Source of the DNA: Pseudodesulfovibrio sp. 5S69
Lineage (GTDB): Bacteria > Desulfobacterota > Desulfovibrionia > Desulfovibrionales > Desulfovibrionaceae
Length of the DNA: 64,000 bases
Assembly: GCF_037094465.1 (NCBI RefSeq)
Contig: NZ_CP146609.1
Span: 3,901,501-3,965,500, forward strand
Reading direction: 5' to 3'
In this document: in pieces, positions 3,438-18,763 of the stretch
How the letters are laid out: every line of letters starts with the position of its first letter
Numbering within the stretch: the first letter of the stretch is position 1
Program-made: the position numbers and the translations under genes
The notes under the pieces: generated by a model
The model's database searches: none
Told to the model about the DNA's origin: nothing
Seen by the model: only the letters and a program-made list of their open reading frames with translations

Positions 3438-3478
3438 GTAGGTATTAAAACCTCGTGGTTGAGTAGGTATTTTAACCC
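3438..3478. promoter_or_regulatory. Tandem near-palindromes, putative operators of the hmc promoter
   Basis: GTAGGTATT occurs at 3438-3446 and again at 3463-3471, exactly 25 bp apart. Each copy begins an imperfect palindrome: AGGT-ATTAAA-ACCT (3440-3453) and AGGT-ATTTTA-ACCC (3465-3478). A related inverted copy, ATAACCTACTC, lies at 3324-3334. A TTGACG hexamer is just upstream (3404-3409). Binding of the linked Rrf2 or a receiver protein is inference. Confidence 0.45.
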
Positions 3479-3511
3479 ACCCAACCGGGAGGAGTTTAAG
3501 ACCGGATTTTC

Positions 3512-3532
3512 GCGCGGCGGGAGATGCCGCGC
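3512..3532 (+). promoter_or_regulatory. Stem-loop in the hmcA leader
   Basis: GCGCGGC and GCCGCGC form a perfect 7-bp stem with a 7-nt loop, about 95 bp before hmcA. No T-run follows, so it is more likely a leader structure affecting stability or translation than a terminator. Confidence 0.4.
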
Positions 3533-3625
3533 TTGGGGGGCCGGAGGTTTCCGGAAACGGGACCAGGGGAACGGGCCGAAAGGCCGGTTCATTGCCATCA
3601 ACGCTTTTGAGAAAGGGATCGACAC

Positions 3626-5233
3626 ATGGCAAACGGTAAACGGATACTGCGATTGACTGCCATCGTGATCGCGCTGGCCGGGGTGCTCGGCTTCCAGTTG
3701 GAAGCCATGGGCATGTTCGACACGGCGAACGAGGCCGCCGGGAAACCGGACGTGATCATGATCGACACCATCGCCAAGCTGGAGTCACTCGAACAACCGG
3801 CGGTCGTGTTCCGCCACGACCTGCACACCAAGGCCCTGAAGGATCAGGGCATGAGCTGCGCATCCTGCCACAAGAAGGACGCCAAGGGGAACCTGACCCT
3901 GGCCTTCGACCGGCTGGAGGGCGAGGACCGGGCCGGGTTGTCCGCGTCCGGGCTCAAGGACATGTATCACGACAACTGCATCTCTTGCCACGTCAAGAGC
4001 GAGGAGAAGGGCTTCAAGACCGGTCCCAAAACCGGCGAATGCCGCAGTTGCCACCAGGAACGGCCCGAAGCGGCCGACCGCGTCCCGGCGGGTATGGACA
4101 ACATGCTCCACTTCGTCCACTGGGACTCCAAGGTCATCCCGTCCGATCCGGGCAAGGAGACCAACTGCGGCGCCTGCCACAAGAAGGCCGGCGAAGAGGA
4201 CAGTTGGCGCTTCTCGGAAGCGGCCAAGACCGAGCCCCTCAAGGACGTCTTTCACAGCCAGTGCGTGACCTGCCATGAGAGCCTGATCGAGAAGAAGGCC
4301 GACCGCTCCGGCCCGGTGCAGTGCGCCGGTTGCCACGGCGAAAAGGAAACCGCCGAGCGCGCGGTGGAGCTGGCCAAGAACCTGAAGGCCATGGGCGGCA
4401 CCTTGCCGCGCCTGCCGCGCAAGCAGCCCGACGCCGTGCTCCTGGCCCCCGAGGCCAAGCCCGGCGCCGCCGACCTGAAGCCCACGGGCATGGCCCCGGT
4501 GGCCTTCGACCACAAGCTGCACGAGGCCCAGGCCGATTCCTGCCTGACCTGCCACAAGGACGGCGTCAACGCCAAGCTGGACGCCTCCTATGAGGCCCTG
4601 CACGACGTGAGCGACCCGGCCACCTGCGTGGGCTGCCATGCCCAGGCCCAGAAGAAGCCCCAGTGTGCCGGCTGCCACGAGGCCCGCCCGGCCGCCAAGG
4701 TCCTGTCCAAGGACTCCTGCGCCACCTGCCACAACGTCGGCGTCGGCGAGAAGTCCGGCATGATGTCCATGATGGCCACCGCGCCCGCGGACCCGGTCAC
4801 CATGAGCAAGGAAGAAAAGCAGGCCGAGGCCGCCAGGGTCATCGCGGCCCGTCCCCGGACCCAGGCCATGGTCCCGGAAAAGGACATCCCCGAGTTCGTG
4901 ACCATCGGCGCGCTGGCCGACCAGTACCGACCGAGCAAGATGCCCCACCGCAAGATCGTCATGAGCCTGTACAAGGGCATGCAGGGCGACAAGCTGGCCG
5001 CGACCTTCCACGCGACCCCCGAGGCCGTGTGCGCAGGTTGCCACCACAACGCCCCTGCCACCCTGACGCCGCCCAAGTGCGCCTCCTGCCACGGCAAGCC
5101 CTTCGAGACCGAAGGCAGGCCGGGGCTCAAGGCCGCCTACCACGGCCAGTGCATGACGTGTCACAAGGAAATGAAGCTCGAAAAGCCCGCCGCCACCAAC
5201 TGCGTCGCGTGCCACGAGAAGAAAACCAACTAG
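3626..5233 (+). CDS. hmcA: HmcA, high-molecular-weight multihaem cytochrome c
   Basis: Periplasmic electron carrier that exchanges electrons between hydrogenase/type I cytochrome c3 and the membrane Hmc complex. The 535-residue product starts with an export signal (MANGKRILRLTAIVIALAGVLGF). I count 14 CXXCH sites and no other cysteines; the Desulfovibrio vulgaris protein binds 16 haems, so this homologue appears to have two fewer. Sites run from CASCH near residue 78 to CVACH near the C-terminus, with a gap around residues 375-465 that has none. It is the first gene of the hmc operon, 15 nt before hmcB. Confidence 0.95.
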   Translation: MANGKRILRLTAIVIALAGVLGFQLEAMGMFDTANEAAGKPDVIMIDTIAKLESLEQPAVVFRHDLHTKALKDQGMSCASCHKKDAKGNLTLAFDRLEGEDRAGLSASGLKDMYHDNCISCHVKSEEKGFKTGPKTGECRSCHQERPEAADRVPAGMDNMLHFVHWDSKVIPSDPGKETNCGACHKKAGEEDSWRFSEAAKTEPLKDVFHSQCVTCHESLIEKKADRSGPVQCAGCHGEKETAERAVELAKNLKAMGGTLPRLPRKQPDAVLLAPEAKPGAADLKPTGMAPVAFDHKLHEAQADSCLTCHKDGVNAKLDASYEALHDVSDPATCVGCHAQAQKKPQCAGCHEARPAAKVLSKDSCATCHNVGVGEKSGMMSMMATAPADPVTMSKEEKQAEAARVIAARPRTQAMVPEKDIPEFVTIGALADQYRPSKMPHRKIVMSLYKGMQGDKLAATFHATPEAVCAGCHHNAPATLTPPKCASCHGKPFETEGRPGLKAAYHGQCMTCHKEMKLEKPAATNCVACHEKKTN

Positions 5234-5248
5234 CCGAAGGAGACATTG

Positions 5249-6304
5249 ATGTTACGCAGAACCTTCCTCGGATTGTTGGGTGCCGCGGGCGCGAGCGCAG
5301 CGCTGGCCAAGCCGACCCAGGCCGGAAACAAGCACTTCGGCCCGCACCCCGACACCCACGGCGTGCTCTTTGACGCGACCCGCTGCATCGGCTGCCGCCA
5401 GTGCGAGCTGGCCTGCAACGAGGTCAACGAGCTGCCCGCACCCGATAAGCCGTTCGACGATCTGACCGTGCTCGACACCGAGCGCCGGACCGACGAAAAG
5501 ACCTTTACCGTGGTCAACAAGTACCAGACCTCCCTGGGTCCGGTCTTCCGCAAGAACCAGTGCAACCACTGCCTGGAGCCGGCCTGCGCCTCGGCCTGCT
5601 TCGTGCGGGCCTTCAAGAAGCAGCCCAACGGCGCGGTGACCTACGACGCCTCCGTGTGCGTCGGCTGCCGCTACTGCATGGTGGCCTGCCCGTTCTCGAT
5701 CCCGGCCTACGAATACAACGAACCGCTGACCCCCCGGGTCCGCAAGTGCACCATGTGCTACCCCCGCCTTGTCGAGGGCAAGCTCCCCGGCTGTGTGGAG
5801 CGCTGTCCCAAGGAGGCGTTGACCTTCGGCCTGCGGGCGGACCTCATCCAGATCGCCCGCAAGCGCATCGAGACCTACCCCGACCGCTACGTGGACCACA
5901 TCTACGGCGAGCACGAGATGGGCGGTACCAGCTGGATGTACCTGTCCGGCGTGCCCTTTACCGAGCTCGGCATGCGCGAGGACCTCGGCACCAGTTCGGC
6001 CCCTGAACTGACCGCCGGACCCCTGGCCGCCGTGCCCATGGTGGTCGGCCTGTGGCCCGTGCTGCTGGGCGGCATCTACGCCGTCAGCAAGCGCAACGCC
6101 AAGGTCGCCAACGACGAGCGCGTCAAGGCCGTCAAGGACGCCCTGACCAAGGCGGGCGAAGAGGCCGAGAAGAAACTCCACCAGGAGCTGGGCAAGGCCG
6201 AGCAGGCCAGCCAGCGGCGCATCGAGGTCGAAGTCAAGAAGGCCGTCGAAGAGGCGCTCGCTCCCAAGGAAGAGGACGCCGGAAGCAACGAGGAGGAGTC
6301 CTAG
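5249..6304 (+). CDS. hmcB: HmcB, periplasmic iron-sulfur subunit of the Hmc complex
   Basis: Electron-transfer subunit between HmcA and the integral membrane partners. It has a twin-arginine signal at the N-terminus ([14 protein letters not shown]), implying export with assembled clusters. Ferredoxin-type cysteine sets follow: [35 protein letters not shown] and CTMCYPRL...CVERC, the pattern of four [4Fe-4S] clusters seen in the DmsB/HmcB family. A hydrophobic segment near residue 255-275 probably anchors it; a charged coiled-coil-like tail follows. ATG at 5249 is preferred over the TTG at 5246 because AAGGAG is 6 nt upstream of it. Confidence 0.95.
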
Positions 6305-7480
6305 ATGTCTGTCGAAACCACTGCGGTCGCGAAGAAGTCCCTCTTCACGCCGTTCAATCTTATCGCAACGGTCATTCTCATCGCCGGGCTGGTGGTCACG
6401 GTGATGCGCTTCACTAGCGGCCTGGGGGCCGTCACCAACCTGGACCAGAACAACCCGTGGGGGATCTGGATCGGCTTCGACCTGATGTGCGGCGTCGCCC
6501 TGGCCGCGGGCGGGTACACCACCTCCGCCGCCTGCTACCTCTTCGGACTGAAAAAATACCACGCCGGGGTCCGCCCGGCCATCCTGACCGCCTTTCTGGG
6601 CTACGCCCTGGTGGTCTTCGCCCTGGGCTACGACGTCGGCCGTCCCTGGCGGCTGCCCTACCCCATCTTCGTCCAGCAGGGCACCACGTCCCTGCTCTTC
6701 GAGGTGGGCCTGTGCGTCATGCTCTACCTGACCGTGCTGTTCATCGAGTTCACGCCCGCCCTGTTCGAGTGGCTGGGTATGAAGAAGATCCGCAACATCG
6801 TGGTCAAGATGACCCTGGCCCTGACCATCCTGGGCGTGGTCCTGTCCACGCTGCACCAGTCTTCCCTGGGCGCGCTGTTCACCATCGCCCCCTCGAAGCT
6901 GCACCCGCTGTGGTACTCCCAGTATCTCCCGGTGTTCTTCTTCGTGTCGAGCATCTGCGCGGGCATGTCCATGGTCATCTTCGAGGGCACCCTCTCCCAC
7001 AAGCCCATGCACCACTTGATGGACAAGGAGTACCTGGACAACCACGACGGCCTGATCCTGGGTTTCGGCAAGGCCGCTTCCCTCGTGCTGTTCGGGTACT
7101 TCGCCATCAAGCTCATCGGCCTGGCCTACGACAACAACTGGCATTACCTGACCACCGGCTACGGCGCCTGGTACCTGGTCGAGATGCTCGGTTTCGTGGC
7201 CCTGCCGTCCTTCCTGTACGCCGTGGGCGTGCGGGACAAGAATCTGACCGTGATCCGCTGGGCCGCCGGACTGACCGTGCTCGGCATCATCGTCAACCGG
7301 TTCAACATCTCCATGGTCGCCTTCAACTGGCAGCTCCCGGCCGCGCAGCGGTACTTCCCGAGCTGGGGCGAGATCACCATCTCCCTGTTCGTGGTGACCA
7401 TCGGCGTGCTGGTCTTCCGGTTCATCTGCACCCGGATGCCCATCTTCTACGAGCATCCCGACTACAAGGGCGAACACTAG
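6305..7480 (+). CDS. hmcC: HmcC, NrfD/PsrC-type integral membrane subunit
   Basis: Polytopic quinone-interacting subunit of the Hmc complex. The 391-residue product is almost entirely hydrophobic, with about ten likely membrane spans, beginning at LIATVILIAGLVVTVM. It belongs to the NrfD family and has the early NPWGIWIGFDLMCGVALAAGG-like signature of that group. The ATG follows the hmcB stop with no gap and the SD GAGGAG lies inside hmcB, so the two genes should be translationally coupled. Confidence 0.94.
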   Translation: MSVETTAVAKKSLFTPFNLIATVILIAGLVVTVMRFTSGLGAVTNLDQNNPWGIWIGFDLMCGVALAAGGYTTSAACYLFGLKKYHAGVRPAILTAFLGYALVVFALGYDVGRPWRLPYPIFVQQGTTSLLFEVGLCVMLYLTVLFIEFTPALFEWLGMKKIRNIVVKMTLALTILGVVLSTLHQSSLGALFTIAPSKLHPLWYSQYLPVFFFVSSICAGMSMVIFEGTLSHKPMHHLMDKEYLDNHDGLILGFGKAASLVLFGYFAIKLIGLAYDNNWHYLTTGYGAWYLVEMLGFVALPSFLYAVGVRDKNLTVIRWAAGLTVLGIIVNRFNISMVAFNWQLPAAQRYFPSWGEITISLFVVTIGVLVFRFICTRMPIFYEHPDYKGEH

Positions 7481-7489
7481 GAGGTTGCC

Positions 7490-7621
7490 ATGGAATTCTA
7501 CACGCTCCAAGACTACTACACGTTCACCAAGGGGACCATCTACCTGATCATGGGCGGCATCCTCGTGGCGGCGACCCTGTACTGGCGCTTCCTGATGGGC
7601 GGCAACAAGAAGGACGACTAG
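7490..7621 (+). CDS. hmcD: HmcD, small membrane subunit, 43 residues
   Basis: A very short integral membrane component of the Hmc complex. The product is MEFYTLQDYYTFTKGTIY then a single span (LIMGGILVAATLYW) and a basic/acidic tail GGNKKDD. AGGAGG lies 5-6 nt before the ATG. The position between hmcC and hmcE and the size agree with HmcD of Desulfovibrio vulgaris. Confidence 0.88.
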   Translation: MEFYTLQDYYTFTKGTIYLIMGGILVAATLYWRFLMGGNKKDD

Positions 7622-7675
7622 CCGCTAAGGCCATCGTTTAAAAATTAACGATATGACTATCAAGGAGAAGCGGAA

Positions 7676-8353
7676 ATGTACGATTTCCTGACCGGGCCCA
7701 TGCTCTGGCTGACGTTTGCCGTCAGCTTCGGCGGCCTGCTCGTTCGCGCCGTGATGTATGTCAAGGGCCTCAGTTGGCAGCTCGACCGCGTGGCGTACCG
7801 TCCCAATATGAAATACGGCATCCGGGGGGGCATCCGCTCCATCGTGGCCTTCATCATCCCGTTCAAGGCCCGGCTGTGGCAGACCCGCCCCGGCTTCACC
7901 CTCATCTTCTTCGCCTTCCACATCGGGCTGCTGGTCACCCCGATCTTCCTGGCGGCACACAACGTGATGCTCCAGAACGCCTTCGGGTTCAGCCTGCCCG
8001 CCCTGCCCACCGGGGTGGCCGACGGCCTGGCCTGGATCTGCCTGGTGGGCGGCCTGTTCCTGATCCTCAGGCGCATCGCTTTCCCCGAGGTGCGGATCAT
8101 CACCACCTTCTACGACTACCTGCTGCTGGTCATCTCGGTGATGCCGTTCATCACCGGCCTGATCGCCCGGTACGAGATGGGGGACTACAACTTCTGGCTG
8201 GCCGCCCACATCCTGAGCGGCGAAATCTGGCTCCTGGCCCTGCCCTTCACCAAGCTCAGCCACGTGGTGCTGTTCTTCATGTCCCGCATGCAGTTGGGCA
8301 TGGACTACGGCATCAAGCGCGGCGGCATGAAGGGCACGGACATGGCCTGGTAA
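7676..8353 (+). CDS. hmcE: HmcE, NarI-like b-type cytochrome membrane subunit
   Basis: Membrane subunit of 225 residues, thought to hold b haem and pass electrons towards the cytoplasmic HmcF. At least five spans are visible. Histidines in or beside spans (FHIGLLVTPIF, ANIL-like AAHILSGEIWLLALPFTKLSHVVLFF) fit haem ligands of the NarI/HdrE family. AAGGAG precedes the ATG. The gene lies 54 nt after hmcD and 33 nt before hmcF. Confidence 0.92.
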   Translation: MYDFLTGPMLWLTFAVSFGGLLVRAVMYVKGLSWQLDRVAYRPNMKYGIRGGIRSIVAFIIPFKARLWQTRPGFTLIFFAFHIGLLVTPIFLAAHNVMLQNAFGFSLPALPTGVADGLAWICLVGGLFLILRRIAFPEVRIITTFYDYLLLVISVMPFITGLIARYEMGDYNFWLAAHILSGEIWLLALPFTKLSHVVLFFMSRMQLGMDYGIKRGGMKGTDMAW

Positions 8354-8386
8354 CCGGGCTTTAGCCTTACATTACGGAGAACCGAA

Positions 8387-9778
8387 ATGCCTGAAGGAAA
8401 ATTCTGCAACAAGACGCCCATCAACACCGAGGAACAGCTCAAGGCGACCCTCGGCGACAAGGGCGGCAAGCAATACTACGAAGAGATGAACCAACTGGAC
8501 GTGGACTCGGACAAGCTCTGGGCCTCCATCCAGAAGACCATGAAGTCCAGGACCAAGACCTGGCTCGAAATCTGTGCCCACTGCGGCCTGTGCGCAGAAA
8601 GCTGCTTCCTGTACCAGGTCAACGGCCGGGTGCCCGAACAGGTCCCGTCCTACAAGATCCAGTCCACCCTCGGGGTGATGGTCAAGAAAAAGGGCAAGGT
8701 CGACAACGCGTTCATGCAGATGTGCATGGAGACCGCCTGGTCCAAGTGCACCTGCTGCAACCGCTGCGGCATGTACTGCCCCCTCGGCATCGACATGGGC
8801 GTGATGTTCAGCTACCTGCGCGGCCTGCTCTACTCCCAGGGCTTCGTGCCGTGGGAGCTCAAGATCGGCTCCGGCATGCACCGCGTGTACCGCGCCCAGA
8901 TGGACGTGACCACCGAAGACTGGGTCGAGACCTGCGAGTGGATGGCCGAGGAAAACGAAGAGGACTGGCCGGGTCTGGAAATCCCCGTGGACAAGGTCGG
9001 CGCGGACATCATGTACACCTGCAACGCCCGCGAGCCCAAGCACTACCCCGAGGACATCGCCGAAGCGGCCATCCTCTTCCACGTGGCGGGCGAGAACTGG
9101 ACCGTGCCCTCCGAGGGCTGGGAGCAGACCTCCCTGTCCATGTTCGCCGGCGACTGGGAGTGCTGCAAGGACAACGTCCTGAACGTCTACGCCGCCCTGG
9201 AGCGCCTCAAGCCCAAGCGGGCCATCGGCACCGAATGCGGCCACGCGCACCGCGCCACGGTCATCGAGGGCCCCTACTGGGCGGGCCGTCCCGACGGACA
9301 GCCCCCGGTCCCCTACATCCACTACGTGGAGTGGCTGGCCGAGGCCCTGCGTACCGGCAAGCTCAAGATCGACCCGACCAAGCGGATCAAGGAACCGGTC
9401 ACCCTGCAGGACTCCTGCAACTACGTGCGCAACCAGGGGCTGAAGGACGTCACCCGCGAGATCCTGAGCTACATCGTGGAGCCCGGTTACTTCGTGGAGA
9501 TGGCCCCAAACAAGGAGCACAACTACTGCTGCGGCGGCGGTGGCGGATTCAACGGCATCGGCAAGTACCGCGAGCAGCGCAACGTGGCCCTGCGCAAGAA
9601 GATGGAGCAGATCCTCGACACCGGCTGCAAGCTGGTCATCGCGCCCTGCCACAACTGCTGGGACGCCATCCGCGACCTGGAGGAAGAGTACAAGATCGGC
9701 ATCCGCTGGTCCTTCCTCAAGCCCCTGGTCATCGGCATGCTCGACGTGCCCAAGCACCTGCTCCCCCCCGAGGAATAG
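8387..9778 (+). CDS. hmcF: HmcF, cytoplasmic HdrD-like iron-sulfur subunit
   Basis: Cytoplasmic end of the Hmc complex, related to the heterodisulfide reductase subunit HdrD. The 463-residue protein has two [4Fe-4S] cysteine sets in its N-terminal third ([11 protein letters not shown] and [11 protein letters not shown]) and then CCG-type motifs: LQDSCNYVR and YCCGGGGGF in the C-terminal half. No signal peptide or membrane span is seen. Ordinary SD (ACGGAG). It closes the structural part of the operon; the next gene starts 35 nt later. Confidence 0.94.
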
Positions 9779-9813
9779 ACCGGAGACCGTGTAACCAAAG
9801 GACGAGGTGATCT

Positions 9814-10707
9814 ATGTTCAAGAAGATTCTACTGGCGACCAGCGGTGCTCCGTCCACCTTCGGCGCCGCGCGGGTGGCCTTCGACATGGCCAAACGTTAC
9901 GGGGCCGAGGTGGTGGTGTTCAACGTCATGGGCGTGCCCACCAAGGCCTTTTCCCAGGTGGTCAACGACGTGCGCACCGGCGAGGAGATCGAGGTCGACG
10001 ACGAATACCGCGCCTGGGTGGAGGAGGAACTCAAATCCACCTTCGAGAAGCAGATCGAGTCGGTCGAGTACGCCAAGATCGTGACCACCACGGGCGTGCC
10101 CAGCCGCGAGATCCTGCGCGCCGCGCGGGCCGAGGACGCGGACCTGATCGTCATGGGCGCGAGCTCCGGCGATTCGTCCGCCTACCGCAAGGGCTACCCC
10201 GGCTCCACGCTCCAGCGCGTGGCCAAGGCTGCCCGCTGCCCGGTCATGACCGTGCACCGCGAGACCGCCTCCTACTGGGGCGGGTTCGGCAACATCGTGT
10301 TCGCCACCGACTTCTCCAAGCAGGCGGAGAACGCCTTCAAGTTCGCCCTCAATTCGGCCAAGGAACTGGGCTGCGACCTGACCCTGTTCCATGCCCTGGA
10401 CATCAGCGGCAAGGTCCTGGACCAGAACGACATCGAGGACAAGCTCATCGCGGCCAGGGCCCGCATCCGCGAGACCTACGGCCCGCTCATGGGCGACTTC
10501 AAGGACTTCGACATCGAGGTCTGGGAGGGCGTGCCCTACGTGGAAATCGTCAAAATCGCCCGCGAGCGGTCCGCCGACCTGATCGTCCTGGCGCACCACT
10601 CCCGCGAGCTCGACCCGGAGCTGGCGTCCATCGGGTCCACCCTGGAGCAGGTCATCCTGCGCGCCGGGTGCCCGGTGGTCAGCGTGAGCAAGCCGGACAA
10701 GGTCTAG
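9814..10707 (+). CDS. Tandem-domain universal stress protein (UspA family)
   Basis: A cytoplasmic stress/energy sensor with two UspA folds. Domain 1 covers about residues 1-145 (start MFKKILLATSG, end PVMTVHRET) and domain 2 residues 155-297 (IVFATDFSKQAENAFKFA to PVVSVSKPD). Remnants of the nucleotide-binding G-(S/T) loop are visible near the end of each (GYPGSTLQRV and IGSTLEQV). It lies 35 nt after hmcF in the same direction, so it is probably co-transcribed; a hairpin directly after the stop could attenuate reading into the regulators. It is not part of the classical hmcABCDEF-rrf1-rrf2 layout. Confidence 0.9.
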   Translation: MFKKILLATSGAPSTFGAARVAFDMAKRYGAEVVVFNVMGVPTKAFSQVVNDVRTGEEIEVDDEYRAWVEEELKSTFEKQIESVEYAKIVTTTGVPSREILRAARAEDADLIVMGASSGDSSAYRKGYPGSTLQRVAKAARCPVMTVHRETASYWGGFGNIVFATDFSKQAENAFKFALNSAKELGCDLTLFHALDISGKVLDQNDIEDKLIAARARIRETYGPLMGDFKDFDIEVWEGVPYVEIVKIARERSADLIVLAHHSRELDPELASIGSTLEQVILRAGCPVVSVSKPDKV

Positions 10708-10841: not shown

Positions 10842-11195
10842 ATGTCCAAGAAGATTCTCATCGTCGACGACGACCAGGAAATCCGTTCGTATCTGTCCGA
10901 ACTGCTCGGCGACAACGGGTATGAAACCGTGACCGCCAATGACGGCGCCGAGGCCGTGGATATCGCCAAGAGCGAAAAGCCCGACCTGATCACGCTGGAC
11001 CTGGAAATGCCCAATGAGTGGGGTCCGAGGTTCTACCGCAAGATCAGCCAGGACGATGCGCTCAAGCGCACTCCGGTGGTGGTCATCAGCGGGCTCAACG
11101 CGATCCAGTACGCTATTCCCAAGGCGATCGCAAGTCTTACCAAGCCTTTTGAACCCACGCAGTTGCTGAAGATCGTCAAGGACGCCATCGGCTAG
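10842..11195 (+). CDS. Stand-alone response-regulator receiver protein (Rrf1-like)
   Basis: Single receiver domain, 117 residues, no output domain. Acidic pocket DDD at residues 9-11, probable phosphoacceptor D53 (TLDLEMP), conserved Ser in VVISG, and Lys in TKPF. The ATG at 10842 is preceded by AGGAGG; an earlier GTG at 10821 would add a leader that overlaps this SD. It should relay phosphate from a linked histidine kinase; position between the hmc genes and rrf2 matches Rrf1 of Desulfovibrio vulgaris. It is closely similar to the next gene, including the unusual EWGPRFYRK stretch just after the phosphoacceptor. Confidence 0.9.
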   Translation: MSKKILIVDDDQEIRSYLSELLGDNGYETVTANDGAEAVDIAKSEKPDLITLDLEMPNEWGPRFYRKISQDDALKRTPVVVISGLNAIQYAIPKAIASLTKPFEPTQLLKIVKDAIG

Positions 11196-11220
11196 CGGCC
11201 CCACGGGTTGGTTTTTTGCC

Positions 11221-11339: not shown

Positions 11340-11696
11340 ATGCCAAAGAAAATCATGGTGGTGGACGACGATCCGGACATCGTCGATTACCTCATCAGCG
11401 TATTCGAAGACCACGGGTACGACACCTGCCGCGCTTCCGACGGGATTTCCGCCTATGAGGTGGCCATGGCCGAAAAGCCGGACCTCATTACGCTGGACAT
11501 CGAAATGCCCCACGAATGGGGACCGCGTTTCTACCGTCGGCTTACCAGTGAGAAGGAGTTCTCCGACATTCCGGTGATCGTCATCAGCGGGCTGTCGGGT
11601 ATCCATCTGGCCATTCGGCGGGCCGTGGCGACCATCAAGAAGCCCTTTGACCCGGCGGATGTGATCCAGATCGTACGAGAGGCACTGGGCGAATAG
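11340..11696 (+). CDS. Second stand-alone receiver protein, paralogue of the first
   Basis: 118-residue receiver domain with DDD at residues 8-10, phosphoacceptor Asp in TLDIEMP, VVISG-type Ser (VIVISG), and Lys in KKPFD. Sequence, length and the EWGPRFYRR signature show recent common ancestry with the preceding protein. No DNA-binding domain is present. Ordinary ATG; SD is weak (AGG about 9 nt upstream). Two near-identical relays upstream of one kinase suggests competing phosphate sinks or different protein partners, which is inference. Confidence 0.9.
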   Translation: MPKKIMVVDDDPDIVDYLISVFEDHGYDTCRASDGISAYEVAMAEKPDLITLDIEMPHEWGPRFYRRLTSEKEFSDIPVIVISGLSGIHLAIRRAVATIKKPFDPADVIQIVREALGE

Positions 11697-11781: not shown

Positions 11782-13707
11782 ATGGATTTCAAACGACTGT
11801 TGCTCGTGGATGACGAGGAAGGCGTCCGCCGGTTCCTCGGCCTCTCGCTGATGGACCTGGGCTACGAAGTGCAAACCGCCGCCAACGGCCAGGAGGCCCT
11901 GGAGGTCTTCGACGCCTTCCGGCCCAACATCGTCTTCACCGACATCAAGATGCCCGTCATGGACGGCATCGACCTGCTCCGGGCCATCAAGGAGCGCTCC
12001 CCGGATACCGAGGTGGTCATGATCACCGGCCACGGGGACATGGACCTGGCCATCGAATCCCTCAAGTTCGACGCCTCGGACTTCATCACCAAGCCGATCA
12101 ACAACGATGTCCTGGAGGTCTCGCTCGAACGCGCCCGCGAACGCTACAGCATGAAGCTGCAACTGCGGGAGTACACCGAAAACCTGGAGAAACTGGTCGA
12201 GGAAAAGACCGACCGCATCGTCGAACTGGAACGCCAGAACGCCGCCTGCCAGGTGGTCCAGGGGCTGTCCTCGGCCCTGTCCGACGCGGCGCAAGAGGTC
12301 GAGACCGGGTACGGGGTGTTCAACGAACTGCCCTGCCTGGTGTCCATCCACAACCGCTACCTCGAAATCGTGGCCCACAACCGTCTGTTCGAGGAGCGCC
12401 TCGGCAACCAGGTGGGCAACAACAGCTTCGACATCTACTCCGACCGCACCTCGCCGGGCAACGCCTGCCCGGTGCAACGCACCTTCGAGACGGGCAAGGG
12501 CCAGCGCAGCAAGGAAAATTTCCTGACCAAGGACGGCGAGGAGATCCCGGTCACGGTCTACACCGCGCCCCTGCCCAACAAGGACGGCGAGATCGAACTG
12601 GTCCTGGACATCTCCGTGGACATGACCGAGCTCAAGCGCCTCCAGGACGAACTCTACACCACCCAGTACAAATACCAGCGCCTGTTCGACGAGGCCCCCT
12701 GCTATATCACCGTGCAGGACGCGGACCTGAACATCGTCGAGGCCAACCGGCTGTTCAAGCGGGATTTCGGCGAGGTCGAGGGGCACTTCTGCTTCGAGGC
12801 CTACAAGCACCGCAGCGAGCCCTGCGAGGGGTGCCTGGTGGACAAGACCCTGCTGGACGGCGAATCCCGCCAGCGGGAGACCGTGGTGACCACCCTGACC
12901 GGCGAGCAGAAGCACATGCTCGTCCAGGCCGCGCCCCTGCACGACGCCTCGGGCCGCATCTTCCAGGCCATGGAATTGTCCACGGACATCACCGAGATCC
13001 GCAAGCTCCAGGACCACCTGACCTCGCTGGGCATTATGCTCGGGTCCATGTCCCACGGCGTCAAGGGCATGCTGACCTCGCTGGACGGCGGCATCTACCG
13101 GCTGGAATCGGGCCTGAAAAAGGGCGACCACGAGCGCGTGGAAGCGGCCACCAAGACCCTCAAATCCATGATCGGCCGGGTCAAGAAGATGGTCCTGGAC
13201 ATCCTCTACTACGCCAAGTCCCGCGAGCTCGAAACCGAGGCCGTGGACGCGTCCAAATTCCTCACGGACACGGCGGACGTGGGCGCGGCGCGGGCGGCGG
13301 CAAACAAGGTGGAATTCGTCCGCGACATCCCGGACGATCTGGGGACCATGCAGGCCGACACCGCGGCCTTGTCCGCGGCCCTGGTCAACTTCCTGGAAAA
13401 CGGCGTGGATGCCTGCGAAGGCAGGGAGGACGGCCGCCTGACCCTGTCGGCCGAACGCACGGCCGCCGGATTGGTCATCACCGTGTCGGACAACGGCATG
13501 GGCATGGACCACGAGACGCGGGACAAAATCTTCACCCTGTTCTTCTCGTCCAAGGGCAAGCGGGGCACGGGCATCGGGCTGTTCATCTCCAACCAGACCA
13601 TCGAGCAGCACGGCGGGTCCATCCGGGTGAAGTCCGCCCCGCACCAGGGCTCGACCTTCGTCATCACCCTGCCCGACCGGGCCGGGCGGCCGGGAGCCGG
13701 GCAATAG
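11782..13707 (+). CDS. Receiver-PAS-PAS histidine kinase of the hmc/rrf regulatory locus
   Basis: 641-residue soluble kinase. Residues 1-120 form a receiver (DDEE, phosphoacceptor D54 in FTDIKMPVMDG, Lys in TKPINND). A coiled coil (about 125-165) follows. Two PAS regions come next, about 175-290 and 300-410, carrying cysteine patches NACPVQRT and PCEGCLVDKT. The H-box is MSHGVKG with H425. ATP-binding motifs are NFLENGVDA (N), SDNGMGM (G1) and GTGIGLFIS (G2). No membrane span is seen. It starts 85 nt after the second receiver gene and is the obvious phosphodonor for the two receivers. The two-Cys PAS motif might sense redox state or metal. Confidence 0.9.
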   Translation: MDFKRLLLVDDEEGVRRFLGLSLMDLGYEVQTAANGQEALEVFDAFRPNIVFTDIKMPVMDGIDLLRAIKERSPDTEVVMITGHGDMDLAIESLKFDASDFITKPINNDVLEVSLERARERYSMKLQLREYTENLEKLVEEKTDRIVELERQNAACQVVQGLSSALSDAAQEVETGYGVFNELPCLVSIHNRYLEIVAHNRLFEERLGNQVGNNSFDIYSDRTSPGNACPVQRTFETGKGQRSKENFLTKDGEEIPVTVYTAPLPNKDGEIELVLDISVDMTELKRLQDELYTTQYKYQRLFDEAPCYITVQDADLNIVEANRLFKRDFGEVEGHFCFEAYKHRSEPCEGCLVDKTLLDGESRQRETVVTTLTGEQKHMLVQAAPLHDASGRIFQAMELSTDITEIRKLQDHLTSLGIMLGSMSHGVKGMLTSLDGGIYRLESGLKKGDHERVEAATKTLKSMIGRVKKMVLDILYYAKSRELETEAVDASKFLTDTADVGAARAAANKVEFVRDIPDDLGTMQADTAALSAALVNFLENGVDACEGREDGRLTLSAERTAAGLVITVSDNGMGMDHETRDKIFTLFFSSKGKRGTGIGLFISNQTIEQHGGSIRVKSAPHQGSTFVITLPDRAGRPGAGQ

Positions 13708-13839: not shown

Positions 13840-14283
13840 ATGAAACTGACCACACGCAGCCGATACGGCACCCGTTTGCTCCTGGACATCGCCCTGCACT
13901 CCAAGAACGGCAGCCCGGTCCCGAGCAAGGATACCGCCGAGCGCGAGAAGCTGTCCCTGAAGTACCTCGAAAAACTGATCAAGATGCTCAAGCAGGCGGG
14001 CTACGTGAAAGGCAAGCGCGGGCCCAACGGCGGCAACATCCTGGTCCGCGAGCCCGAAGACATCTCCATCGGCGAGGTGGCCCGCATCCTGGACGGCGAG
14101 GAGCAGGTCCTGGGCTGCGAGGGCGACCCGTCCACCTGCCCGCGCGCGGCCGTCTGCCTCAAGCGCTCCATCTGGGACGACGCCTCCCTGGCCATGTACA
14201 AGATGCTCGACTCCTATTCCCTGGCCGACCTGATGAAGGACGCCTACCTGTGTCCCGAGAATCCGCCCAAGAGCGACGGCTAG
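13840..14283 (+). CDS. rrf2: Rrf2, iron-sulfur transcriptional regulator
   Basis: Founding-type member of the Rrf2/IscR family and known repressor of hmc in Desulfovibrio vulgaris. The 147-residue protein has an N-terminal winged helix (MKLTTRSRYGTRLLLDIA, recognition region SLKYLEKLIKMLKQAGYV) with the wing KRGPNGG. Three cysteines, C93, C100 and C106, have the spacing expected for an [Fe-S] cluster as in IscR. It starts 132 nt after the kinase. The hmc upstream palindromes at 3438-3478 are candidate targets. Confidence 0.93.
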   Translation: MKLTTRSRYGTRLLLDIALHSKNGSPVPSKDTAEREKLSLKYLEKLIKMLKQAGYVKGKRGPNGGNILVREPEDISIGEVARILDGEEQVLGCEGDPSTCPRAAVCLKRSIWDDASLAMYKMLDSYSLADLMKDAYLCPENPPKSDG

Positions 14284-14319: not shown

Positions 14320-16584
14320 GTGCTGAAGCGCTTCCGCGAGAGCCTGATCGCGAAGATGATCCTGTCGGGCGGGGTGACGCTCATCCTGTGCATCTTCCTG
14401 TGGACCGGGTTCAACGTCTATTACTTCAAGAACAATGTGGTCTCCAACGTCATGTCCGACATCGAGATGGTCTCGGACACGATCATGCTCGCCCTGCACT
14501 ACGCCATGATGCTCGACAATGAAGAGGACATCAAAGAGAACATCAACAACATCGCCAAGCAGGAAGAGATCGAGAACATCCGGGTCTACAACAAGGAGGG
14601 GCGCATCGTCTTCTCCAACATCCCGGGCGAGATCGGCACGGTCATCGGCCAGGAGACCCCGGCCTGCCGGGCCTGCCACCAATACACGCCGCCGCCCCCG
14701 GCCCTGCCCCTGTCCAAGCGCACCCGGATGATCGAATCGAACGGCCGCCAGCTCATGGCCATCATGACCCCCATCGCCAACTCCGAGGGGTGCTCGCCCG
14801 GCCCCTGCCACGTCCACTCCAAGGACGAACAGGTCCTCGGCCTGCTGGACGTGACCGTGAACATGGACGCCAAGAACGCCATGATCCGGATGTTCGAGCG
14901 GGCCAACATGGGCATCTCCGTGGTCGTGTTCGCGGCCACCTTCCTGGCCCTGTTCGCCTTCACCTACCGGTTCATCTTCCGGCCCATAAAGCGGCTGATC
15001 ACCGCCACGCGCGGCATCAGCGGCGAGGCCGACTACACGGACATCGACATCGAGCAGGTGGATGAGATCGGCACCCTGGGCCAGGCCTTCAACATGATGG
15101 GCCGCCGTGTGGCCGACAAGCACCGCGAACTGCTCGACCAGCGCGAGGAATACCGCAACCTGTTCGACAACGTGCCCTGCCTGGTCTCGGTGGTCGACAC
15201 CGACTACCGGGTCATCCGCCACAACTCGGCCTACGAGCGGCACTTCGGCCTGCCCGACGGCAAGCGGTGCTGGCAGGTGAACAAGGGGCGCCTGGAAAAA
15301 TGCGAGGTCTGCCCCGTGGACCGGACCCTGCGCGACGGCAAGTCGCATATGTCCGAGGAGTCGGGCATGTCCAAGGACGGCCACCCGATCCACTGGATCG
15401 TGTACACCTCCCCGGTGCGCAACGAGAAGGGCGAAGTGGTGGCCGCCATGGAGATGATGGTCGACATCACCCACCGCCGGGAGTTGGAATCCAAGCTGGC
15501 CGCGTCCGAGCACCGCTACCACGCCATCTTCGACTCCATCCCCAACGCGGTCTTCGTCCTGGACCGCAACACGCTGGAGATCCTGAACTGCAACGAGTCC
15601 TCCCAGGAAATGTACGGCTGGGGCCAGCTCGAAATGCGCGGCCGCTCCTTCATGGACTTCTTCCGCGAAGACGAAGCCGGGGACTGGGAAGAGGCCGTGC
15701 GCTGCCAGTCCGAGATCGAACTGTGCACCCACGTGGACAAGTCCGGCAGGCCGTTCTTCGTATTCCTGAACATCTCGCCCGCCCGGTTCGAGGGGCGCGG
15801 CACGCTCATCGTCACCTGCACGGATGTAACCCGCAAGATCGAGGTCGAGCAGCAGCTCATCCAGGCCAGCAAGATGACCACGCTGGGCGAGATGAGCACG
15901 GGCGTGGCCCACGAGTTGAACCAGCCCCTGACCATCCTCCAGGCCATCTCCAACCTGCTCACGCACCGGGCCGAAAACGGCACCGAGATATCGCCGGAGA
16001 TCATGCGCGAGATGGCCGAGGGCATCTCCACCCACGTGGACCGGGCGGCCAAGATCATCGAGCACATGCGCGAGTTCGGGCGCAAGTCCGACCTGCGGAC
16101 CATGCCGGTGCAGATCAACGAGGTCCTGGAGCGCGGCTTCGAATTCTTCAGCCAGCAGTTGCAGGTGCACAACATCCGGGTGGTCTGGGAACTGGAGGAG
16201 AGCCTGCCCCTGATCATGGCCGACTCCAACCGGCTGGAGCAGGTGGTCATCAACCTCCTGCTCAACGCCCGGGACGCCATCGAGGACCGCTGGAAGGACG
16301 ACAAGGCGGGCGCGGACAAGCGCATCCTGCTCCAGTCCTTCAGCACGCCCGAGCGCATCGTCTTCCGCATCTGCGACACGGGCGCGGGCATCCCCCCGGC
16401 CATCCGCGAACGGCTGTTCGAGCCCTTCTTCACCACCAAGATCGTGGGCAAGGGCACCGGGCTCGGCCTGTCCATCTCCTACGGCATCGTCACCGACTAC
16501 GGCGGGAAGATCCGGGCCACCACCTGGGAGGAGGGCGGCGCCTGCTTCGAGATATCCTTCCCCAGGGCGGAGTGCGAACTGTAG
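14320..16584 (+). CDS. Membrane histidine kinase with a c-type haem periplasmic sensor
   Basis: 754-residue sensor kinase. Spans at about residues 12-35 and 198-221 bracket a periplasmic loop that contains CRACH (116-120) and CSPGPCH (158-164), i.e. a CX2CH and a CX4CH c-type haem motif. HAMP follows (about 220-275), then PAS domains at about 285-395 (with KCEVCPVDRT) and 400-505. The kinase core has H531 in GVAHELNQP, then NLLLNARDAI, DTGAGIPP and GTGLGLSIS. GTG start with AGGAAGG upstream. Located between rrf2 and the haem-enzyme pair, with its own terminator. Haem-based sensing of a redox ligand or nitrogen oxide is inferred. Confidence 0.88.
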   Translation: MLKRFRESLIAKMILSGGVTLILCIFLWTGFNVYYFKNNVVSNVMSDIEMVSDTIMLALHYAMMLDNEEDIKENINNIAKQEEIENIRVYNKEGRIVFSNIPGEIGTVIGQETPACRACHQYTPPPPALPLSKRTRMIESNGRQLMAIMTPIANSEGCSPGPCHVHSKDEQVLGLLDVTVNMDAKNAMIRMFERANMGISVVVFAATFLALFAFTYRFIFRPIKRLITATRGISGEADYTDIDIEQVDEIGTLGQAFNMMGRRVADKHRELLDQREEYRNLFDNVPCLVSVVDTDYRVIRHNSAYERHFGLPDGKRCWQVNKGRLEKCEVCPVDRTLRDGKSHMSEESGMSKDGHPIHWIVYTSPVRNEKGEVVAAMEMMVDITHRRELESKLAASEHRYHAIFDSIPNAVFVLDRNTLEILNCNESSQEMYGWGQLEMRGRSFMDFFREDEAGDWEEAVRCQSEIELCTHVDKSGRPFFVFLNISPARFEGRGTLIVTCTDVTRKIEVEQQLIQASKMTTLGEMSTGVAHELNQPLTILQAISNLLTHRAENGTEISPEIMREMAEGISTHVDRAAKIIEHMREFGRKSDLRTMPVQINEVLERGFEFFSQQLQVHNIRVVWELEESLPLIMADSNRLEQVVINLLLNARDAIEDRWKDDKAGADKRILLQSFSTPERIVFRICDTGAGIPPAIRERLFEPFFTTKIVGKGTGLGLSISYGIVTDYGGKIRATTWEEGGACFEISFPRAECEL

Positions 16585-16604
16585 ACGAACTCTGACGCAA
16601 GATC

Positions 16605-16633
16605 GGCCGGGAATCGCTTCCCGGCCTTTTTTT
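16605..16633 (+). terminator. Rho-independent terminator after the haem-sensor kinase
   Basis: GGCCGGGAA (16605-16613), loop TCGC, TTCCCGGCC (16618-16626), then seven T. It separates the kinase from the cytochrome genes, so those need their own promoter in 16634-16793. Confidence 0.88.
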
Positions 16634-16793
16634 CGCCCGATCTCCCGCCTCCGGTGCTCGATTTTGCGGCAAATGGCAAAAAATAATGTTCCGCCCTGCC
16701 CTTTTTCCTCTTTTTCTGCTAACGGATTGTAAAACCCCATCTCCGTGGACCGGGGGCAATGGTCCGGGGGCGGGGGAACAACCAGGAGGAGGT

Positions 16794-17366
16794 ATGCAGC
16801 GAACAACCAAGTCGGTTCTGTTGGTCCTGCTCGGCATTCTGATCGCCTTTCCGATCTTCAGCATGACCTATTACACCATGGTCAGGACTTCGACCCCGGA
16901 GTTCTGCGGGTCGTGCCATGAAATCCGCCCGGCCGTCCTGGCCTGGGAGAGTTCGACGCACCACAACAACGCCCAGGGATTCGTGGCCGACTGCATGGAC
17001 TGCCATCTGCCCGCGCCCCAGGACACCGTCGACTTCTTCTTCACCAAGACCATGCACGGGGCCAAGGACGTCTTCTCCCACTTCACGGGCGGGGACGAGA
17101 GGTACGACAGGGCGGTCATGCGCGAGCATGTCTGGGCCACCATGAAGAACGACCAGTGCATGAAGTGCCACCGGAACATCCTGCACATGCCGGGCAAGAG
17201 CGGGGCCATGCTGGCCCACCGCCGGGTGCTCTATGCGGGAGGCGGCAGCGAGTACCGCTGCACCGACTGCCACCGGCATCTGGTCCACAACGACAGGCAA
17301 TTCTACGAGTACAAGCAGTTCGACGCCCCCTACCGGGCCAGCGGGCTGCCCAATCTGGGTATCTAG
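16794..17366 (+). CDS. NapC/NrfH-type membrane-anchored tetrahaem cytochrome c
   Basis: Quinol dehydrogenase that passes electrons from the menaquinone pool to a periplasmic reductase. The 190-residue product has one N-terminal span (VLLVLLGILIAFPIFSM) and four CXXCH sites (CGSCH, CMDCH, CMKCH, CTDCH). The start at 16794 is fixed by AGGAGGAGGT directly upstream; a longer frame from 16686 has no SD. It ends 11 nt before the octahaem gene, so the two form one transcription unit. The partner suggests it feeds that enzyme rather than NrfA. Confidence 0.92.
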   Translation: MQRTTKSVLLVLLGILIAFPIFSMTYYTMVRTSTPEFCGSCHEIRPAVLAWESSTHHNNAQGFVADCMDCHLPAPQDTVDFFFTKTMHGAKDVFSHFTGGDERYDRAVMREHVWATMKNDQCMKCHRNILHMPGKSGAMLAHRRVLYAGGGSEYRCTDCHRHLVHNDRQFYEYKQFDAPYRASGLPNLGI

Positions 17367-17377
17367 GAGGTTGGTTT

Positions 17378-18763
17378 ATGTATCGCAAAGTGACGTTCAC
17401 CCTTGCCGCCGCGTTTGCCGTCATCGCCCTGACCGCGATTGCCGCGGGCGCGCAGAATTTCCCCAAGGTCCGCGAACTGCGCATGGACCGCGCCACGCCG
17501 CCCCAGGGCACGGCCTGCATCGAGTGCCACAAGCAGGAGACCCCCGGCATCTTCGCCGACTGGGCCATGAGCCGCCACGCCTCGGCGGGCATCACCTGCC
17601 TGGACTGCCACCAGGCCCAGCCCGGCGAAGGGGACATCACCACAAGCCATGAGAAGTACTATTCCATGGGCAACCTGCCCATGGGCGAGAAGCAGTACTA
17701 CGTGCCCGTGGCCTCGGCGGTCACGCCCAAGGACTGTTCCCGCTGCCACCCGGACGAGGCCAAGCAGTATTCCAAGAGCAAGCACGCCAACACGCTGGAG
17801 ATCATCTGGAAGATCGACCCCTGGCTCAACGGCGGCATGAACTCCGAAAACGAACGCAAGACCGGCTGCTTCTACTGCCACGGCACCGTGCTCAAGATGA
17901 AGGACGGTTCGCTCGACAAGGACACCTGGCCCAACGTGGGAGTCGGCCGCCTGAACATGGACGGCTCGCTCGGCTCCTGCACCAGTTGCCACACCCGGCA
18001 CCGCTTCGCGGTCATGGAAGCGCGCAAGCCCGAAACCTGCGGCCAGTGCCACCTGGGACCGGACCATCCACAGATCGAAATCTACAATGAATCCAAGCAC
18101 GGCGACATCTACCAGGCCTTCAAGCAGGAGTACAACTTCAACTCCGCACCCGGCGCCTGGACCCCCGGCGTGGACTACCGCGCCCCGACCTGCGCCTCCT
18201 GCCACATGTCTGGCTCGGGCAACGTGGCCACCACCCACGACGTGACCGAGCGGATTTCCTGGGAGACCCAGGCCCCGCTGACCATCCGTCCGTCCGAGTT
18301 CAAGCCGCTGCCCGCGGCCACGGACTGGAAGGTGGAGCGCGACAAGATGAAGAACATCTGCAGCCAGTGCCACGGCCAGGCCTGGATCGACGATTTCTAC
18401 AACCAGCTCGACACCTCGGTGAAGGAGTACAACGAGGTCTACTTCAAGCCCGCCAAGAAGGTCCTGGACGAACTCTATGCAAAGGGACTGCTCGACAAGA
18501 CCAAGTACTTCGACGAGCACCTTGAGGTGACGTTCTACGAACTCTGGCACCACGAAGGCCGCCGGGCCCGCATGGGCACGGCCATGATGGCCCCGGACTA
18601 CGCCTGGTGGCACGGCTTCTACGAGTGCAAGCACCACTACAACCAGTTCATGGAGGAGGCCCGCCACCTCATCGACACCAACACCAAGGCCTACCGCTAT
18701 CCCGACTTCCCCAACGCCACGGGCAGCACCACCCGCCCGGAGCAGATCTTCGGCAAGAAGTAG
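17378..18763 (+). CDS. Octahaem HAO-like cytochrome c (hydroxylamine/nitrite reductase family)
   Basis: Periplasmic octahaem cytochrome of the hydroxylamine oxidoreductase family, 461 residues. It has a signal peptide (FTLAAAFAVIALTAIAAGA) and exactly eight CXXCH motifs: CIECH, CLDCH, CSRCH, CFYCH, CTSCH, CGQCH, CASCH and CSQCH. A histidine-rich C-terminal helical part (WHHEGRRARMGTAMM, FYECKHHYNQF) fits this family. In related non-nitrifiers such enzymes reduce nitrite or hydroxylamine; whether the catalytic tyrosine cross-link of true HAO exists here cannot be decided by eye. AGGAGG SD; paired with the NapC-type donor. Confidence 0.88.
   Translation: MYRKVTFTLAAAFAVIALTAIAAGAQNFPKVRELRMDRATPPQGTACIECHKQETPGIFADWAMSRHASAGITCLDCHQAQPGEGDITTSHEKYYSMGNLPMGEKQYYVPVASAVTPKDCSRCHPDEAKQYSKSKHANTLEIIWKIDPWLNGGMNSENERKTGCFYCHGTVLKMKDGSLDKDTWPNVGVGRLNMDGSLGSCTSCHTRHRFAVMEARKPETCGQCHLGPDHPQIEIYNESKHGDIYQAFKQEYNFNSAPGAWTPGVDYRAPTCASCHMSGSGNVATTHDVTERISWETQAPLTIRPSEFKPLPAATDWKVERDKMKNICSQCHGQAWIDDFYNQLDTSVKEYNEVYFKPAKKVLDELYAKGLLDKTKYFDEHLEVTFYELWHHEGRRARMGTAMMAPDYAWWHGFYECKHHYNQFMEEARHLIDTNTKAYRYPDFPNATGSTTRPEQIFGKK

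Follow-up and report, generated by a model that had tools for sequence, protein, structure and literature searches.

The sensor kinase and its place in the Hmc block

We analysed a 64,000-nt window of the genome of Pseudodesulfovibrio sp. 5S69, a single contig of 4.16 Mb, and focused on the gene of a sensor histidine kinase and its relation to two neighbouring sets of electron-transfer genes, the hmc genes on its 5' side and an nrfH-hao pair on its 3' side. Coordinates are positions within the window, and features were read from the sequence, its open reading frames (ORFs) and profile scans; the genes and sites of the kinase, the Hmc block and the nrfH-hao pair all lie on the plus strand. Proteins named as Pseudodesulfovibrio are among the closest homologues in the homologue listing.

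The kinase gene (14320..16584) has a GTG start and a stop at 16584, and encodes 754 aa arranged as a transmembrane helix, a Cache domain with two haem-c motifs, a second transmembrane helix, HAMP, two successive PAS domains, HisKA and HATPase_c. The domains from HAMP onwards were found by Pfam scan, with HisKA and HATPase_c above cut-off, and the hydrophobic segments flanking the periplasmic loop appeared as 19-residue windows starting at residues 7-18 and 194-202. H531, N649 and the glycine-box and ATP-binding residues are invariant in an alignment of 31 sequences. Judged by these residues the kinase core is intact, with both the phospho-acceptor His and the ATP-binding boxes present. An intrinsic terminator of 9 pairs plus a T run lies 3' of the gene at 16605..16626, and the stretch 16590-16640 folds with a z of -2.66 against shuffles.

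The kinase is preceded by an Hmc block. hmcA and the further hmc genes up to hmcE, ORFs named by position, occupy 3626..8353, and hmcF lies at 8387..9778 (NF045711 HmcF, 929 bits, cut-off 750). HmcA (3626-5233) has 14 CXXCH motifs; the Hmc of sulfate reducers is termed a 16-haem protein in a review (PMC8840924). The regulatory part of the block comprises a universal stress protein with two Usp stretches (9814..10707), two stand-alone receivers (10842..11195 and 11340..11696; NF045717 DVU0259_DivK, 192.5 and 192.6 bits, cut-off 160), a receiver-PAS-PAS-HATPase protein identified by domain scan that is the likely signalling partner of the kinase (11782..13707), and an Rrf2-family regulator (13840..14283; PF02082, TIGR00738) ending 36 nt before the kinase. 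The initial annotation had named the two stand-alone receivers as candidate partners of the kinase; they exist and remain candidates, but they are placed in the Hmc block and belong to the DVU0259 family. None of the three window receivers of the block has a DNA-binding domain by Pfam scan, and Rrf2 is the only regulator of the block that is of a DNA-binding type by family.

We compared this arrangement with 18 close orthologue loci, from the same genus and with kinase identity of at least 70%. The order hmcA-F, usp, two receivers, receiver-kinase, rrf2, kinase was kept in 18/18, and the kinase thus holds a conserved place ending the Hmc-regulator block. The three cysteines of the Rrf2 protein (CX6CX5C) were likewise kept in all 18 loci; the Rrf2 fold and these cysteines are the features of iron-sulfur (Fe-S) Rrf2 regulators, and the cluster itself is predicted. 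Such a three-Cys pattern resembles that of Fe-S regulators responding to nitric oxide (NO) and redox state.

Haem-c motifs of the predicted Cache sensor domain

The periplasmic sensor domain as modelled (14413..14916, residues 32-199) is predicted to be a single Cache domain by structure model and structure comparison; among the Cache domains that its modelled fold resembles are those of WalK, CitA and DcuS. The initial annotation had pointed to CRACH and CSPGPCH motifs in the periplasmic loop, and both are present there, between the two membrane helices. CRACH, a CX2CH motif, lies at 14665..14679 (residues 116-120), and CSPGPCH, a CX4CH motif, at 14791..14811 (residues 158-164). When the 165-residue loop was shuffled, a CX2CH arose in 0.14% of cases, a CX4CH in 0.16% and both together in 0/20000.

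The same annotation had made its proposal of covalent haem depend on conservation of the motifs among orthologues, and on checking, both sites proved to be kept. The CX2CH motif is found in 88/88 sequences, as are Cys158, Cys163, His164 and His166. A set of kinase homologues had CXXCH in 76/76, with the second site a CX4CH in 74 and a CX3CH in 2; both sites occur in 80/80 loci from named genomes, where the second is CX4CH in 65 and CX3CH in 15, and in 117/118 further listed kinases. Met63 (14506..14508), kept in 86/88 sequences, is a candidate distal haem ligand; it aligns with a pair of Met residues in helix 1 of GSU0935, although the aligned segment taken alone is weak.

A profile built on the sensor had as its top two PDB hits GSU0935 and GSU0582, both of them haem-c sensors (whole-sequence E 4.2e-4 and 1.5e-3). 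The Cys pair of the CX4CH motif aligns with the haem cysteines of both proteins, and the CX2CH motif falls outside the aligned part of the profile. The CX4CH motif is therefore the apparent equivalent of their haem site, and the CX2CH motif looks like an added second site. In the model, the CX4CH motif occupies model residues 127-133, before a strand at 141-150; the kinase thus shares two features of the GSU0935/GSU0582 type, a haem motif in the loop that precedes the final beta strand and a Met in helix 1. With E allowed up to 0.05, the family PF21563, which from its name we take to be the Geobacter haem-c sensor family, matches 27 of 31 members of the kinase's sensor family, the best at 1.3e-6, but the window kinase stays below cut-off. 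Neither a PDB search with the sensor sequence alone, without a profile, nor the 50 VIA-align rows listed for the sensor model yielded the Geobacter proteins: the former found nothing, and 3b42 and 3b47 were absent from the latter.

The kinase resembles these Geobacter chemoreceptors (PDB 3b42, 3b47) in having a periplasmic Cache/PAS-like domain between two membrane helices, and HAMP. It differs in its second haem motif, in having CX4CH where they have CXXCH, and in its histidine kinase rather than chemotaxis output. A Cache fold (here predicted) and a haem-c motif (found by sequence) also define the sCache_heme or Tll0287-like proteins, which in a 2026 preprint (PMC12889525) are Cache domains with covalent haem c, part of them fused to kinases. 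Unlike those proteins, the kinase had no match to PF11845 at E up to 10 in HMMER, whose filtering discards most hits with E over 0.1. The main text of the same preprint contains none of the terms two heme, diheme, second heme and CX4CH. Motifs, Cache fold and the GSU0935/GSU0582 match together support, by homology, the proposal of covalent haem in the periplasmic domain, and the outer domain of the kinase appears built to carry two haem groups.

Probable respiratory partners and proposed signal of the kinase

To place the kinase among its relatives we used 80 loci from named genomes, 26 of which have at least 8 kb on both sides of the kinase gene. The 80 loci comprised 13 with Hmc, 16 with a Tmc-like complex, 17 with an HdrA-like protein containing an internal receiver and 34 with none of the three; among the 26 well-flanked loci the numbers were 6, 7, 10 and 3. 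Here Tmc-like denotes an HmcF match under 60%. Nine such proteins were checked, six of them encoded in the named loci and three in relatives, and all nine were TmcB above cut-off. HAO adjoined the kinase in 1/26 well-flanked loci. A receiver plus HATPase match stood beside the kinase in 22/26, and four receiver-HATPase proteins of relatives that were scanned consisted of just these domains, with no DNA-binding domain.

Genome-wide co-occurrence was counted in 60 genomes, the window's own and those of relatives, and was not corrected for kinship. The sensor family and hmcF occurred together in 34 genomes, the kinase only in 1, hmcF only in 8 and neither in 17. For hao the corresponding numbers were 22, 13, 15 and 10. 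The wider sensor family thus goes with hmcF and not with hao.

We therefore read the protein as part of the Hmc respiratory module, in which it would act as a dihaem-c Cache sensor kinase; we hold this to be probable, if by no means settled. More broadly, the best reading is a kinase that goes with respiratory electron-transfer modules and senses redox state (or NO) through two haems. Such a kinase, encoded with these modules, would be a dihaem form of the known haem-c Cache sensors. Since the kinase belongs with Hmc, an electron-transfer complex in the respiration of sulfate reducers, rather than with HAO, it probably reports the cell's electron balance.

A mechanism can be proposed from the Geobacter sensors. 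In a study of GSU0582 and GSU0935 (PMC8396549), the axial Met ligates the haem when this is reduced and comes off it upon oxidation. Both proteins bind CO and NO, and Met60, in that protein's own numbering, is the ligand in GSU0935. By homology, both haems of the kinase would be attached covalently, and a change in the redox state of the second haem, or NO bound to it, would alter Met63 ligation and switch the kinase, while the first haem may relay electrons to the second or set its potential. Phosphate would then pass to the receiver-kinase at 11782 and to the free receivers at 10842 and 11340, and the outcome would be control of Hmc expression or activity. The Rrf2 protein may report cytoplasmic redox state or NO through its cysteines.

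The initial annotation had instead proposed a sensor of nitrogen oxides or redox state that governs the nrfH-hao pair next to it. A NapC/NrfH-type tetrahaem gene and an HAO-family gene with eight CXXCH motifs do lie downstream beyond the terminator, as it described, and the pair adjoins the kinase in the window and in 10/18 close orthologue loci. Related haem sensors also bind NO, according to two papers (PMC8396549, PMC12889525). Yet the Hmc block is the constant neighbour, in 18/18 loci, and these include the 8 from genomes that carry hao at a distant position. Apart from the intervening terminator, the gap between kinase and pair widens to 0.57-1.87 kb in 3/10 adjacent cases, against about 0.22 kb, and the operator-like site of hmc has no second copy in the window that the pair could share. 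Nor are the genes coupled across the 60 genomes, where 15 have hao without a kinase of this family and 13 the reverse. On neighbourhood, co-occurrence and the shared-operator search, we rejected this coupling as the principal account of the kinase and regard it as quite unlikely. That the kinase senses NO in the manner of sCache_heme proteins, to protect Hmc and the sulfate-respiration chain and with no part for redox state, seems to us rather unlikely. A membrane sCache_heme protein is reported to show slow NO release and no stable oxygen complex (PMC12889525), and the Rrf2 partner of the kinase has its three cysteines, but the neighbours recognised so far are electron-transfer complexes (no search was made for NO-detoxifying genes), PF11845 is unmatched and the second haem is left unexplained. 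That the motifs bind haem only structurally, or another metal, and that the kinase senses an organic ligand like a classical Cache domain would suit the fold matches to WalK, CitA and DcuS; with haem-c sensors as the best PDB profile hits and both motifs kept in 88/88 sequences, we consider this highly improbable.

Several observations weigh against assigning the kinase to Hmc as a haem sensor. The match to GSU0935 and GSU0582 is modest, with single segments at E 0.11-0.18 and 49-100; the profile alignment places their haem His on His166 of the kinase, not on His164, and the Foldseek match of the sensor model to GSU0935 (3b42) has an rmsd of 14 Å. None of the three partners was found in 34/80 named loci, 31 of which have less than 8 kb on one side. 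In the window itself, no receiver-HATPase gene lies directly 3' of the kinase, unlike in most relatives, and just after receiver 1 there is a weak terminator-like site (11196-11210), so that hmcA and the kinase may or may not share one transcript. An HAO gene is present, as is hmcF, in every one of the 19 genomes that have a close orthologue (close orthologue and hao in 19, close orthologue only in 0, hao only in 18, neither in 23), which makes a link between kinase and HAO possible in this clade. Finally, NO sensing fits as well as redox sensing.

A more far-reaching possibility is that dihaem-c Cache kinases steer core electron-transfer enzymes of sulfate reducers by direct phosphorylation, not transcription. 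We put this forward tentatively, as less likely than not. The receivers that were checked (three in the window, four in relatives and 17 in HdrA, from a part of the loci) carry no DNA-binding domain, and some are embedded in HdrA. In the 17 HdrA proteins the acceptor Asp and the Lys of the receiver are intact, the domain layout having been scanned in one. Searching seven genomes gave one match each that spans receiver and HdrA flavoenzyme, one of them with an in-frame TGA; the match lay less than 3 kb from the kinase in five genomes, selected for that, and elsewhere in two, selected for its absence there.

The arrangement can be set beside known hmc loci. In the hmc operon of Desulfovibrio vulgaris Hildenborough, the hmc genes are followed by a receiver gene and rrf2 (Rrf1/Rrf2), as in the window. 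That operon presumably has no haem kinase, which would make the kinase an addition in the window. At the hmc locus of Desulfococcus multivorans, response regulators, a universal stress protein and four histidine kinases adjoin, again like the window (PMC5109826). The passages used of that genome paper mention no haem motif or sensing mechanism, and they term the regulators beside hmc DNA-binding, which speaks against direct phosphorylation as the route. Among open-licence titles and abstract starts, we found no description of a dihaem Cache kinase or of a receiver inside HdrA.

For electron flow through the Hmc, Tmc and Hdr complexes in sulfate reducers, we know of no established sensor. A testable candidate is this kinase, which has two predicted haem sites in the periplasm and is often encoded beside such complexes; where a receiver is fused into HdrA, redox sensing in the periplasm would be linked by a short path to a flavoenzyme in the cytoplasm. 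The finding has also moved away from nitrogen metabolism.

Of the receiver-bearing HdrA-like genes near the kinase, one lies at 6502-9981 of locus L145 and the others in 16 further named loci; each encodes the flavoenzyme and its internal receiver in a single open frame. Second kinases of the family in same-genus genomes (loci L073, L074 and L075) stand with receiver, receiver-kinase and sulfide:quinone reductase-like genes, and the two of these loci that were scanned also have a pyridine-nucleotide oxidoreductase with a rhodanese domain.

The hmcA upstream region and the nrfH-hao pair

Upstream of hmcA, a footprint of 18 sequences shows two palindromic operator-like sites (3438..3480) 3' of a conserved promoter-like TTGAC..TAACAT pair. 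In the alignment of 18 genomes the palindromes read GTAGGTATT-AAAACCT and GTAGGTATTTTAACCYAC, with several rows deviating. The second site (3463-3480) had no further copy in the window or the genome. The pattern for the first site, taken from relatives, matched nothing in the window and missed even the window's own variant at 3438, so its search is uninformative. Over roughly its last 100 nt, the hmcA leader (3479-3628; loci L156-L172) shows strong conservation across 18 genomes: a GGGGG stretch is invariant and the end nearly so. RNAalifold pairs 19 positions, 4 of them with two-sided changes, and Rfam gave no credible match to this leader.

The pair 3' of the kinase consists of a NapC/NrfH-type tetrahaem protein (16794..17366; PF03264, 4 CXXCH, ATG at 16794) and an HAO-family octahaem protein (17378..18763; PF13447, 8 CXXCH, ATG at 17378). 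The best PDB hit of the octahaem protein is 4qo5 (E 8.9e-52), the octahaem cytochrome of Ignicoccus hospitalis. Hydroxylamine oxidoreductase proper is marked by the cross-linking Tyr of its P460 haem; the matches of the window protein to 1fgj and 4fas end at query residue 373 of 461, and neither the match ranges nor the printed alignments to 4qo5 and 6h5l tell an oxidase from a reductase type by this Tyr. With HAO presence set at E<1e-200 and NrfA presence at E<1e-100, weaker and partial hits being dropped, 34 of the 60 genomes had only the HAO gene, 14 only NrfA and 3 the two together, with 9 lacking both (Fisher p 1.7e-5, uncorrected for kinship), and a profile search gave no NrfA hit in the window genome. 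As the two are seldom found together, the HAO gene may replace NrfHA, and the pair may stand in for it as a nitrite or hydroxylamine reductase. The pair is best treated separately from the kinase.

The leader of the pair, rather than that of the kinase, contains a hairpin with a GGGGGC loop (16747..16765), identified by covariation in 18 chosen leaders. We viewed 32 leaders: the window's, the 10 adjacent to a kinase, the 20 of L175-L194, and L154. Those dropped were L178, a near-copy of L177, the irregular L175, L182 and L183, and L184, L185, L187-L193 and L154, in which the hairpin was not seen. In the 18 aligned leaders (from among L039-L049, L176-L181, L186, L194 and the window), 7 of them from pairs not adjoining a window-type kinase, 88.9% of cells are paired and all five pairs show two-sided changes. 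The covariation was 0.571 against 0.207 for shuffled alignments, a value reached by 0/500, though these statistics are flattered by the choice of the 18. The hairpin was not seen in more distant hao leaders, the window leader on its own folds no better than shuffles (z 0.27), and Rfam gave no credible match to the hao leader. A covariance model gave 18 matches at E up to 1e-3 in the 60 genomes, all of them hao leaders by position; 16/18 were training sequences, and the training leaders L049 and L186 were not recovered.

A PAS/GAF diguanylate cyclase gene (18943-21285) lies 3' of the HAO pair, and it stays near the pair in several relatives, including some in which the pair is far from the kinase.

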